38,304 nt of DNA from Chloroflexota bacterium. Its GTDB lineage: Bacteria > Chloroflexota > Dehalococcoidia > Lucifugimonadales > Lucifugimonadaceae. The first letter of the stretch is position 1. Each line of letters opens with the position of its first letter. The stretch is taken from the NCBI GenBank assembly GCA_002714425.1, contig PAXI01000009.1:16361-54664 (forward strand), in the 5' to 3' direction. The position numbers and the translations under genes are program-made. Shown in pieces: positions 6,761 to 10,240 of this stretch. The notes beneath the pieces are model-generated. The model had not been told where the DNA came from. It saw nothing but the letters and a program-made list of their open reading frames with translations, and did not search any database.

Positions 6761-7678
6761 ATGTGGGCTTTTATAAGCGGAAATCAAGTAGATATAAAGG
6801 AAGCAAAAGTTAGTATTATGACTCACGCTTTGCACTATGGGACAGCTACTTTTGAAGGTATACGTGGAAATTGGAATGAAAATAATAACTCGATGTATAT
6901 TTTTCGTATGAAGGAACACTACGAACGCCTACTTAGAGGATGTAAAATTCTAAGAATTGAACTACCATATTCTGTTGAAGATCTTAGCGAAATTACCATA
7001 GACTTAATCAAAAAAAACAATCTAAAAGAAGATGTTTATATAAGGCCCTTAGCATATAAGGGTGCAGAAATGGTGGCAAATTTAAAATTACATGAAGTGT
7101 CAGATGATTTTGCTTTAGTTACTCTTCCATTTGGGTCTTATATTGATAATAGTAATTCAATTAGATGTCAAACATCAAGTTGGAGGAGGCCAATGGATTC
7201 ATCTATGCCCACTGGTGTTAAACTTACTGGACTTTACACTACAAATATTTTGGCTAAAACTGAAGCAGTATCTGCTGGTTTTGATGAAGCAATATTATTA
7301 AATCAAGATGGTACTGTTTCAGAAGGTAGTGGGGAAAATTTATTTATGATTCAAAATGATAAATTAATTACGCCTGCTGAGACAGATAATGCATTATTAG
7401 GAATTACAAGAGATTCTGTAATTGAGCTTGCAACTAAAGAAATAGGGATAGATGTTCAAGAGAGAAGAATTCATAGATCAGAATTATATTTATCAGATGA
7501 AATTTTTCTAACTGGAACAGCTGCTCATGTCACATCCGTAGGAGAATTAGATAATCGAAAAATAGGAAGTGGAGAAATAGGTAAAATCACAAAACAAATC
7601 CAAGATCTTTATTTTTCAGTTTTGGTAGGTGAGAATTCAAAATATTTAGATTGGTGCACTAAAATTTCAATGGATTGA
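6761..7678 (+). CDS. ilvE: Branched-chain amino acid aminotransferase
   Basis: A 305-residue fold-type IV PLP aminotransferase performing the last step of valine, leucine and isoleucine synthesis. Diagnostic segments: THALHYGTATFEGIRG near the N-terminus, the PLP lysine Lys154 in GVKLTGLYT, EAILLNQDGTVSEGSGENLF, the GITRDSVIEL phosphate-binding segment and EIFLTGTAAHVT near the C-terminus. Length is typical of IlvE. The ATG is preceded by AAGG. It sits away from the T-box ilv-leu operon, between the hydroxyacid dehydrogenase and a small membrane protein 4 nt downstream. D-amino-acid transaminase or ADC lyase are close relatives, but the motifs favour IlvE. Confidence 0.93.
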   Translation: MWAFISGNQVDIKEAKVSIMTHALHYGTATFEGIRGNWNENNNSMYIFRMKEHYERLLRGCKILRIELPYSVEDLSEITIDLIKKNNLKEDVYIRPLAYKGAEMVANLKLHEVSDDFALVTLPFGSYIDNSNSIRCQTSSWRRPMDSSMPTGVKLTGLYTTNILAKTEAVSAGFDEAILLNQDGTVSEGSGENLFMIQNDKLITPAETDNALLGITRDSVIELATKEIGIDVQERRIHRSELYLSDEIFLTGTAAHVTSVGELDNRKIGSGEIGKITKQIQDLYFSVLVGENSKYLDWCTKISMD

Positions 7679-7682
7679 CACT

Positions 7683-8201
7683 ATGAACTACTTCAATAGT
7701 GATATTAGAGAAATATTTATAAATCATTATGTAATTTATGTATACCTTTCTTGTTTTGGTACATTACAAATAGTTTCTGCAATATCAAATTTGCGCGGCA
7801 TAATGATATTGTCAAATCCTAAATCAAATAAGATACTTGGTATAGTATTTCTTGTCTCAGGTTTTATTTTCTTTTTTTCTGCTCCTCTATTTATAAATTC
7901 ACTATCGACAGGTTCTGGCTTTAGTAGAGCAACAATGGAGAATTTTGCATCAGTAAGAAATGTTAATGATATAGATGGAGGGTTGCATGGAACAGCTCAA
8001 TTTCTTTTATTTTTTTTAGGTTGTATTTTATCTTTTTTTACATCTGTGATAATTTCTGGGATTTTGAGGTTTTTAAATAAAAAATCGGAAACCCTTATTG
8101 TAGGTAAAAAAAAATCTAGAGGGATTTTTACTCTAAAAAATTATAATTATTATTCATCATTAAGATTGAATCTTAAAGGTAGATTTTTAGATGATGCTTG
8201 A
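7683..8201 (+). CDS. Unrecognised small integral membrane protein
   Basis: A 172-residue protein not assigned to any family. Three strongly hydrophobic stretches are visible (roughly residues 15-37, 55-77 and 101-127), so it is probably an inner-membrane protein, with a basic Lys/Arg/Tyr-rich C-terminal tail (GKKKSRG and following). It starts 4 nt after ilvE stops, and its last 11 nt overlap the start of the PAP2-family gene, so the two are probably co-translated. That coupling is the only hint to function: a partner for a membrane protein acting on lipids or envelope. No catalytic motif is seen. Confidence 0.75.
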   Translation: MNYFNSDIREIFINHYVIYVYLSCFGTLQIVSAISNLRGIMILSNPKSNKILGIVFLVSGFIFFFSAPLFINSLSTGSGFSRATMENFASVRNVNDIDGGLHGTAQFLLFFLGCILSFFTSVIISGILRFLNKKSETLIVGKKKSRGIFTLKNYNYYSSLRLNLKGRFLDDA

Positions 8202-8781
8202 CGAAAAAATAACTATTTTTATAAATAACTTGAACGGTAAAAATCTTTTTTGGGATTCATTTTTTCAAATTTTTGCAAGTGACTACTTAGTTCCAGTTAT
8301 TTGTGCATTATCAATTTTTTCACTATGGTTTTTAGTTTTAGATTCAAAAAAATTATTATTAAATCAAAAATCAGTATTTTATTCAATTTCAGCTATCATA
8401 GTAACTAATATTTTGGTTTGGTTAGTGAATAATTTAGTTTCAAGGCCAAGACCTTTTATTGGTAATTCAGATGAAATACAACTGATGTTTTATGCCCCTA
8501 CAGATCCGTCTTTTCCTGCAAATCCGGTGGCGATTGGATTTACCGTTGCTGCCTCGATTTTTCCTGCAAATAAATATCTAGGATATATTTTATTAGTAGC
8601 ATCTTTAATATTTAGCTTTTCGAGAATATATGTTGGCGTTTTTTACTTTATTGATGTTTTTTCAGCTGCAATTCTTGGTTTTATAGTTGCATTGTTAGTA
8701 AGAAAAATTATGCGCATAAAAATTATTAATTTAATTTTGATGAAGCAGATAAAAATCTTAAGGCTTTTAGCACTATCCTAG
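8191..8781 (+). CDS. PAP2-superfamily membrane protein, catalytic histidines replaced
   Basis: A 196-residue membrane protein with about five hydrophobic segments and the layout of PAP2 lipid phosphatases. The three conserved blocks are recognisable but altered. Block 1 is SRPRP (Arg85, Arg87). Block 2 is DPSFPANP, where the usual His is Pro112. Block 3 is SRIYVGVFYFID, where the nucleophilic His is Phe151 while Arg145 and Asp155 remain. The family mechanism needs both histidines, so this copy is probably not a phosphatase (inference). The frame is intact, with no sign of decay. Its end overlaps the convergent CpsB-like gene by 4 nt. The start could be either of two adjacent ATGs (8191 or 8194), with AAGGT upstream. 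Confidence 0.85.
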   Translation: MMLDEKITIFINNLNGKNLFWDSFFQIFASDYLVPVICALSIFSLWFLVLDSKKLLLNQKSVFYSISAIIVTNILVWLVNNLVSRPRPFIGNSDEIQLMFYAPTDPSFPANPVAIGFTVAASIFPANKYLGYILLVASLIFSFSRIYVGVFYFIDVFSAAILGFIVALLVRKIMRIKIINLILMKQIKILRLLALS

Positions 8782-9524
8782 TCTTCAAATTTAGGTAAGT
8801 GCCCGTCAAGAATAAGTTGAGGGTTAGAAATAAATAATTTATTTGAGACTTTTTCTCCAAAAACTTCGGTAATTAACTCGTAGGATACATTTAGGTTAGG
8901 AAAAAGAATTTTATCTTTATTATGTATTTCAGAGGAAATACATGTAGCATGTTTTTTTTCTATGATTTCTAGTGCAAATTTTTTACTTATATCACCATTA
9001 TTACCGATAATACTGTCCGAACTAATTTGAATTAAAGCACCTAGATTTATAATTTCTTCTATAATTTTATAATTTTTTCTTAAGTAAATATTTCTTTCAG
9101 GATGTGATATTATCGGGTAAAGTCTTTTATCTCTAAATTTTTCAATAATTTTTAGATTACTTTCATCAAAATAATTAAAAGTTGATTCGATCAAGAAAAA
9201 TCGCGTTTTGTTAAGTGAAAAATTTTGTGCTTCATTATCGATAATATCAATAATTTTTTCAGAGAAATTTAATGAAATTCCAGAAAAAATATTAATACCT
9301 ATAGAATTTTTATGAGCTAATGTATTTAATTTTTCTACATACTCTTCAATATCCTTAAAATTCTTATTATTAATCAAAAGGTTTTCATAATGAGGTGTTG
9401 CAATAATTTTTGAAATCCCACTTTTTTCTGCCAAAACTAAAATTTCTAGAGATTCATCAAAGTTAAATGGACCATCATCAAATTCTGGTATTATATGTGA
9501 CTTAATATCTGTAAATTTTTTCAT
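8778..9524 (-). CDS. CpsB/YwqE-like PHP-domain protein with altered metal site
   Basis: A 248-residue protein resembling the PHP-fold manganese-dependent tyrosine phosphatases (CpsB, YwqE) that regulate capsule and exopolysaccharide kinases. Matching segments are SHIIP--DDGP, IIATPHY, PIISHPER and the C-terminal NPQLILDG. Of the metal ligands expected from pneumococcal CpsB, His10, Glu113, His141 and His201 are present. The first His of HxH is Lys8, the Glu of the GxE motif is Ser84, and the Asp of DxH is Glu199. Activity may be lost or changed. It lies 2 nt after the PIG-L gene on the same strand, with its AAGGT site inside that gene's end. No tyrosine kinase or polysaccharide cluster is seen nearby. 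Confidence 0.8.
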   Translation of the reverse strand: MKKFTDIKSHIIPEFDDGPFNFDESLEILVLAEKSGISKIIATPHYENLLINNKNFKDIEEYVEKLNTLAHKNSIGINIFSGISLNFSEKIIDIIDNEAQNFSLNKTRFFLIESTFNYFDESNLKIIEKFRDKRLYPIISHPERNIYLRKNYKIIEEIINLGALIQISSDSIIGNNGDISKKFALEIIEKKHATCISSEIHNKDKILFPNLNVSYELITEVFGEKVSNKLFISNPQLILDGHLPKFED

Positions 9525-9526
9525 TA

Positions 9527-10240
9527 TTAAGACCTTGCCTTAACCCTCCTAAAAACTTCTCCATACTTAAATTTAAATTTTATTGATGCATCTTCATGTC
9601 TTTTTTTCATGCTATTCCATAAATCAGACCCAACAGATAATCCAGGTATCTGGCTTTTATGCATGGATAAAGCCTGAATTTTAGTATTTATAGATTCGGT
9701 TATATCTACAATTATATTGGGTTCATCTGCTCCCCAGAAAAATATTTCTTTAACCTTGTGGGTGGACAATCCATTTTTTATTTGATTTTCGAAATGTAAA
9801 TGATCTCTTGCAAAAGGATATACTGCGTCTTGAACAGTAATTCCTGTATTTCTGTGATCTCTATGCTGAAAAGAGTTTTTTCGAAAATGATCATGAGTGA
9901 AAACAACTTCTGGCTTAAATTTTCTTATATTTTCTACAATTTGTTCTAAGAAATCATCACTTGCTTTTAGTTTGCCATCTTCATATTCCAGAGATATAAG
10001 ATTTTTAACTCCTATAACATTGGCTGCTTCTTTTTGTTCTTTCTGGCGAAGAATTTCAATTTTTTCTGATGTCATTTTTAAATCATTACTTCCGCTATTA
10101 CCTGTAGTACATTGCACAAATGTAATTTCAGTGCCATTCTTTGACCATTTTGATACCGTACCTCCGGAACCAATCTCTGCATCATCAGGGTGAGCAAAAA
10201 TCACCATTGCTGTTTCTGGCCTATAATCGACAATATCCAT
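9527..10240 (-). CDS. PIG-L (LmbE) family zinc deacetylase
   Basis: A 237-residue PIG-L/LmbE-family N-deacetylase. The family includes MshB and BshB, which remove acetyl from GlcNAc-inositol or GlcNAc-malate in thiol synthesis. The zinc and catalytic motif AHPDDAE is at residues 16-22, with GSGGTVSKW after it and the second zinc-binding segment THDHFRKN...HRDHRNTG. Length fits. An AGGGT site precedes the ATG. It is upstream of the CpsB-like gene (2-nt gap) and divergent from glyA. The MshA-like, MshD-like and IMPase genes elsewhere in the window make an amino-sugar substrate plausible, but that is inference; other PIG-L enzymes act on antibiotics or GPI-like sugars. Confidence 0.9.
   Translation of the reverse strand: MDIVDYRPETAMVIFAHPDDAEIGSGGTVSKWSKNGTEITFVQCTTGNSGSNDLKMTSEKIEILRQKEQKEAANVIGVKNLISLEYEDGKLKASDDFLEQIVENIRKFKPEVVFTHDHFRKNSFQHRDHRNTGITVQDAVYPFARDHLHFENQIKNGLSTHKVKEIFFWGADEPNIIVDITESINTKIQALSMHKSQIPGLSVGSDLWNSMKKRHEDASIKFKFKYGEVFRRVKARS

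Follow-up and report, generated by a model that had tools for sequence, protein, structure and literature searches.

A PAP2-fold protein without catalytic histidines is co-inherited with a small membrane protein in the Dehalococcoidia

Results and discussion

Within the 38,304-nt stretch of Chloroflexota DNA analysed here (the window), two overlapping forward-strand ORFs, at 7683–8201 and 8191–8781, encode a small membrane protein and a PAP2-fold protein that has lost both catalytic histidines. The two are inherited together across the class Dehalococcoidia and so most likely work as one unit. On balance, we favor the reading that they are the two subunits of a complex that would hold the headgroup of a polyprenyl (di)phosphate and, in the lineage of the window, would carry out no phosphatase chemistry.

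A PAP2-like protein with a substituted active site

The ORF at 8191–8781 (+) encodes a 196-aa protein that matches PF01569 over residues 64–175 with 45.9 bits, against a gathering threshold of 27.2, and this profile score above the curated cut-off, together with a helical-bundle fold, places it in the PAP2 superfamily. Set against the catalytic consensus KX6RP – PSGH – SRX5HX3D, block 1 (residues 80–88; 8428–8454, +) has Asn80 in place of the Lys and retains Arg85, Arg87 and Pro88. Block 2 (residues 105–112; 8503–8526, +) reads D105-P-S-F-P109-A-N111-P112, with Pro112 for the His, Asn111 for Gly/Asp and A110-N111-P112 where SGH is expected. Block 3 (residues 145–155, RIYVGVFYFID; 8623–8655, +) lies within S144-R145-I-Y-V-G149-V-F151-Y-F-I-D155 and has Phe151 for the nucleophile His, with Arg145 and Asp155 kept. 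A preliminary description of this DNA had already recognised the PAP2-type ORF, its frame and coordinates, Pro112 and Phe151 at the two His positions and the retained supporting Arg and Asp, all of which agree with the Pfam match and the alignment, but it overlooked three losses, the Lys to Asn80 and the block-2 Ser-Gly to Ala110-Asn111. It had also allowed for a His shifted to another position; realignment places no His at 112 or 151, and the whole 196-aa sequence has no His at any position and only one Cys.

The AlphaFold2 model is a confident helical bundle (pLDDT 96.4, pTM 0.90). Its nearest solved fold is that of Aquifex LpxE (6ebu; Z 19.1 over 159 residues), with B. subtilis YodM (5jki; Z 16.0) next, and the Aur1-Kei1 structure (9ivc) is also matched (Z 14.2). 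In sequence, the best NCBIfam matches are of the BcrC/YbjG/SepP type (PRK11837, E 1.1e-13; SepP, E 1.3e-12), at scores below the equivalog cut-offs of these undecaprenyl-diphosphatases (51.6/229 and 48.1/250 bits). Enzymes of this type are similar to the window protein in length and fold, and the nearest canonical sequences in the phylum read D-x-S-F-P-S-D-H, whereas the family of the window protein has P[A/S]N-x for PSDH and the window protein itself has Phe at the nucleophile position. This family also differs in having its own conserved residues (DY31-32, Q59, FY100-101 and R191) and in being inherited with a partner.

An obligate partner encoded by the overlapping ORF

The partner is a 172-aa membrane protein (7683–8201, +) with no match of note in Pfam, NCBIfam or PHROGs. 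Its conserved residues are Y16, G26, Q29, G39, F64, R92-N93-x-N-D96-xx-G-G100, F110 and G147, with the RNxND motif strong within the order of the window, not across the class. PAP2-like orthologues are present in 64 of 100 relatives, and the partner profile matches 63 of the 100; both genes occur in 63, neither in 36, and one has only the PAP2-like gene. The profile search of these relatives found the partner in none of the 36 that lack the PAP2-like gene, and the lone exception (G024) is a genome only 61% complete with a fragment of the PAP2-like gene. In a class-level sample of 197 genomes, 60 have the partner, and every one of these also has the PAP2-like gene. The PAP2-like profile also matches 14 further genomes that have no partner; the nine matches that were inspected are canonical PAP2s that retain His, and the remaining five are weak (E 6e-11 to 7e-15). 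One family member (L158) is a second PAP2-like copy with no partner nearby, and another (L143) and its partner sit at the ends of different contigs. Beyond the class, the pair occurs, through either inheritance or transfer, in a few genomes of the phylum; the loci concerned are L175 and L176 (genomes G287 and G299, outside the class), L177 and L178.

The two ORFs overlap by 11 nt in the window and in its genus, and mostly by 4 nt (ATGA) in its own taxonomic family. In two genomes (G075, locus L093; G092, locus L106) they are naturally fused into one reading frame, with an added hydrophobic segment between the two parts. A model of the L106 fusion, built from a smaller alignment (A4), has a pLDDT of 84.6 and a pTM of 0.75, and places a helix in the linker at residues 145–168, a low-confidence stretch. 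The partner part of this model gave no separate match to a solved structure in searches that barely probe that part. Three other candidate fusions were rejected: what looks like a fusion in L118 is produced by a stretch of N, and in L082 and L112 the partner is in another frame. Co-occurrence, overlap and the two fusions tie the PAP2-like protein functionally to its small membrane neighbour much more strongly than the preliminary description had guessed.

The stretch between helix 2 of the partner and RNxND is 3–4 residues long in all 49 partners of members that keep the block-3 His (His151); among partners of members that have lost it, 16 have 4 residues there, and all 32 from the window's own taxonomic family have 19–47. 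The expanded stretch corresponds to partner residues 66–91 (about 7878–7955 in the window), and the members concerned all lack His151. This expansion is one event on the tree and so marks a lineage; it is not evidence of cause.

Histidine loss and selection

Three separately assembled congeneric genomes share P112/F151 in proteins 77–89% identical to that of the window, which argues against the local mutation that the preliminary description had considered. The same residues in these congeners, the pattern across the whole family, the open frames and a dN/dS of ~0.2 rule out a sequencing error, a pseudogene or a shifted alignment, and the chance that the substitutions are an artefact of any such kind is negligible. 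The family spans the class Dehalococcoidia. The block-2 His is present in none of 61 aligned orthologues, in which position 112 is Pro, Ser, Ala or Thr and is preceded by an almost invariant Asn111, and the most His-rich column of that alignment is position 151 itself, with the block-3 His retained in 17 rows. When class- and phylum-level genomes are added, the block-2 His is absent from all ~110 partner-linked rows, a number in which some genes are counted twice, and from all 100 distinct members used for the tree, where P-[A/S]-N-x stands for the BcrC-type PSDH. It is kept in 36 of 36 complete canonical rows, none of which has the partner. Position 80 in block 1 is Asn or Asp in nearly all family members. 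Of the phosphate-site residues, R87 is retained in 98, R145 in 97, and D105 and D155 in all 100 members.

Of the 100 members, 49 have His151 and 51 have lost it, among them all 32 that were sampled from the window's own taxonomic family. Where lost, His151 is replaced mostly by Phe, and otherwise by Ser, Ala, Gln, Cys, Tyr, Thr or Asn. The deletion of both histidines, as first described, holds for the lineage of the window and is not the general condition of the family: the block-2 His is absent family-wide, but about half of the members still have the block-3 His. Parsimony on a maximum-likelihood tree from which the trait columns had been left out gives 11 changes of the His151 state (10–12 in bootstraps), at least four of them forced by supported branches; His151 was lost repeatedly. 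With all rows included, loss of the block-2 His requires two changes. Only one family row, L177, falls outside the main group, and it neighbours a long branch, which makes one origin of this loss plausible, though unproven. Positions 112 and 151 vary together, with P112 and a non-His residue at 151 in 46 members, a residue other than P112 with His151 in 45, and nine off-diagonal. These losses cluster in clades, so few independent events lie behind the coupling, and independent support for the P112/F151 coupling is slight, at four pairs on supported branches.

Calculated by NG86 against two congeners, dN/dS for the PAP2-like gene is 0.23 (dN 0.057, dS 0.243) and 0.20 (0.081, 0.400), well below 1, as would be expected of a maintained non-phosphatase subfamily, and for the partner gene 0.42 and 0.26. 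Values for neighbouring genes are 0.04 to 0.14. Both genes are under purifying selection that is weaker than that on the surrounding enzymes.

Other phosphatases in the relatives

UPP synthase is encoded in 94 and a BacA-type UPP phosphatase in 62 of the 100 relatives. The BacA-type gene of the window genome (contig C11:12062-12827) is in two overlapping pieces in different frames, and so is frameshifted, by mutation or by assembly error; two congeners (G001 and G002) have intact copies. Among the order-level relatives outside the window's own taxonomic family (G061–G099), BacA is present in 14 of 17 that keep His151 versus 3 of 12 that have lost it (Fisher p 0.006, phylogeny ignored). As this trend runs opposite to the simple expectation, a dependence of His151 loss on BacA was rejected. 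Most His151 losers without BacA carry another PAP2.

Proposed function and alternatives

The ancestor of the family would have been a BcrC/YbjG-type undecaprenyl-diphosphatase in which PSDH changed to PSN-x as the protein became tied to the partner. In the lineage of the window, the block-3 nucleophile would then also have been lost and the pocket refilled with Pro112 and Phe151. With these changes, a PAP2 phosphohistidine is not possible in the window protein, and PAP2 chemistry should have ended in this lineage with the loss of His151. The residues predicted to line the phosphate site, two Arg and one Asp, remain and, as Arg87, Arg145 and Asp155 are nearly invariant in the family, a phosphate-binding pocket can persist. 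Most likely, a complex of the two proteins would bind a lipid-phosphate headgroup, putatively polyprenyl (di)phosphate or similar, at the outer face of the membrane, and would present, sequester or move it. We infer a lipid-binding or transport role for the PAP2-like protein, and its probable ligand from the nearest enzymes only. Precedent is provided by E. coli PgpB. Its block-3 His is indispensable, with removal abolishing all activity (PMC7413402), and the dead H207A variant is stabilised by phosphate, with the Tm increased by 17.1 C (PMC7413402); PDB entry 8bm3 is titled as PgpB H207A with farnesyl pyrophosphate. In contrast, the PgpB block-2 variant H163A has 27% of its C55-PP activity left (PMC7413402), and Aquifex LpxE is active despite an Asp at block 2 (PMC6581854), so losing only the block-2 His does not necessarily inactivate a diphosphatase. 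The roughly half of the family that keeps His151 may thus be active diphosphatases, and the role of the family might be enzymatic and the branch of the window derived.

Three known systems are informative. Aquifex LpxE, like the window protein, has no block-2 His and is still an active lipid phosphatase, but it keeps the block-1 Lys and the nucleophile His143, neither of which the window protein has, and the accessible portions of the LpxE report name no partner (PMC6581854). Vertebrate PLPPR/PRG proteins are likewise membrane proteins of the PAP2 fold in which catalytic residues are substituted, and they have no detectable LPA phosphatase activity (PMC9520309). Their phosphate-binding residues are, however, severely disturbed (PMC9520309), whereas Arg/Arg/Asp are kept in the window protein, and they have no counterpart of its partner. 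The fungal IPC synthase Aur1-Kei1 resembles the window pair in combining a PAP2-like fold with a small membrane subunit. Kei1 is that subunit of Aur1, which is an active transferase, unlike the role proposed here.

The strongest competitor, although we consider it unlikely, is that function resides in the partner, with the PAP2-like subunit only a structural or stabilising shell that binds no ligand. Strict co-inheritance, the existence of fusions, the repeated loss of PAP2 chemistry in the family and the PLPPR precedent of a PAP2 fold without phosphatase activity (PMC9520309) are all consistent with such a scaffold. A pure shell would not, however, need R87, R145, D105 and D155, and these are nearly invariant in the 100 members even though the catalytic His residues could be lost. 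Continued catalysis, as hydrolysis or phosphotransfer by another nucleophile, its own or donated by the partner, is very improbable. Asp155, Arg87 and Arg145 are retained, relatives with His151 could hydrolyse diphosphates through a His/Asp dyad (PMC7413402), and one 97% complete genome (G089) encodes a member with His151 but lacks both BacA and any other PAP2. But PgpB without its block-3 His is inactive, the residues at position 151 of the losers provide no consistent replacement nucleophile, and neither the PAP2-like protein nor the partner has an invariant His, which rules out a catalytic His donated by the partner.

It is also improbable, and more so than a scaffold, that the pair is a non-orthologous undecaprenyl-phosphate flippase in which the PAP2 pocket would hold the headgroup and the helices of the partner would contribute to the path. 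Polyprenyl-phosphate transport is the role of DUF368/PopT proteins, and the pair is present in only 2 of the 11 genomes found to have a PopT-type (PF04018) gene; the linker of both fusions also adds a hydrophobic helix, the one predicted at 145–168 in the L106 model. The PopT pattern is, however, weak. PopT-type genes are rare (5 of 60 relatives, three of them one genus, and 6 of 197 genomes in the class), and one of the six PopT genomes in the class has the pair versus 30% carriage overall. DedA-type (PF09335) genes are present in 83 of the 100 relatives, including the window genome, so that another flippase candidate is usually available. Strict complementarity of the pair with PopT or DedA is, therefore, not supported by the phyletic patterns.

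Non-catalytic PAP2-fold proteins were already known from vertebrates, as the PLPPRs (PMC9520309); in the open-access literature we found neither a bacterial PAP2-fold pseudo-phosphatase nor a description of this gene pair. Living lineages preserve the loss of the two histidines as successive steps: intermediates that lack the block-2 His but keep the nucleophile exist beside end states that lack both, so that living members allow a direct test of how the enzyme became a non-enzyme. The closest enzymes act in recycling the lipid carrier used for cell-envelope synthesis, which makes the pair a candidate for a component still missing from the handling of the envelope or of polyprenyl lipids in Chloroflexota. 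In its boldest form, which is doubtful, the pair would be a class-wide two-subunit machine in which a disarmed PAP2 diphosphatase has been converted into a carrier or flippase that holds the headgroup of polyprenyl phosphates, the partner supplying the other half of the path.

Neighbouring genes

Upstream of the pair is a branched-chain aminotransferase-like gene (6761–7678, +; named from sequence), which lies next to the pair at almost every orthologous locus in the order and whose gene cluster is represented in 57 loci, counting that of the window. Downstream, a convergent CpsB/CapC-like gene (8778–9524, −; PF19567, 151.5 bits) shares 4 nt with the end of the PAP2-like ORF; this neighbour is common in the window's own taxonomic family and rare elsewhere in the order. 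It is followed at 9527–10240 (−) by a PIG-L deacetylase gene, for which the best NCBIfam match, below cut-off at 114.2/182.5 bits, is BshB1 of bacillithiol synthesis.
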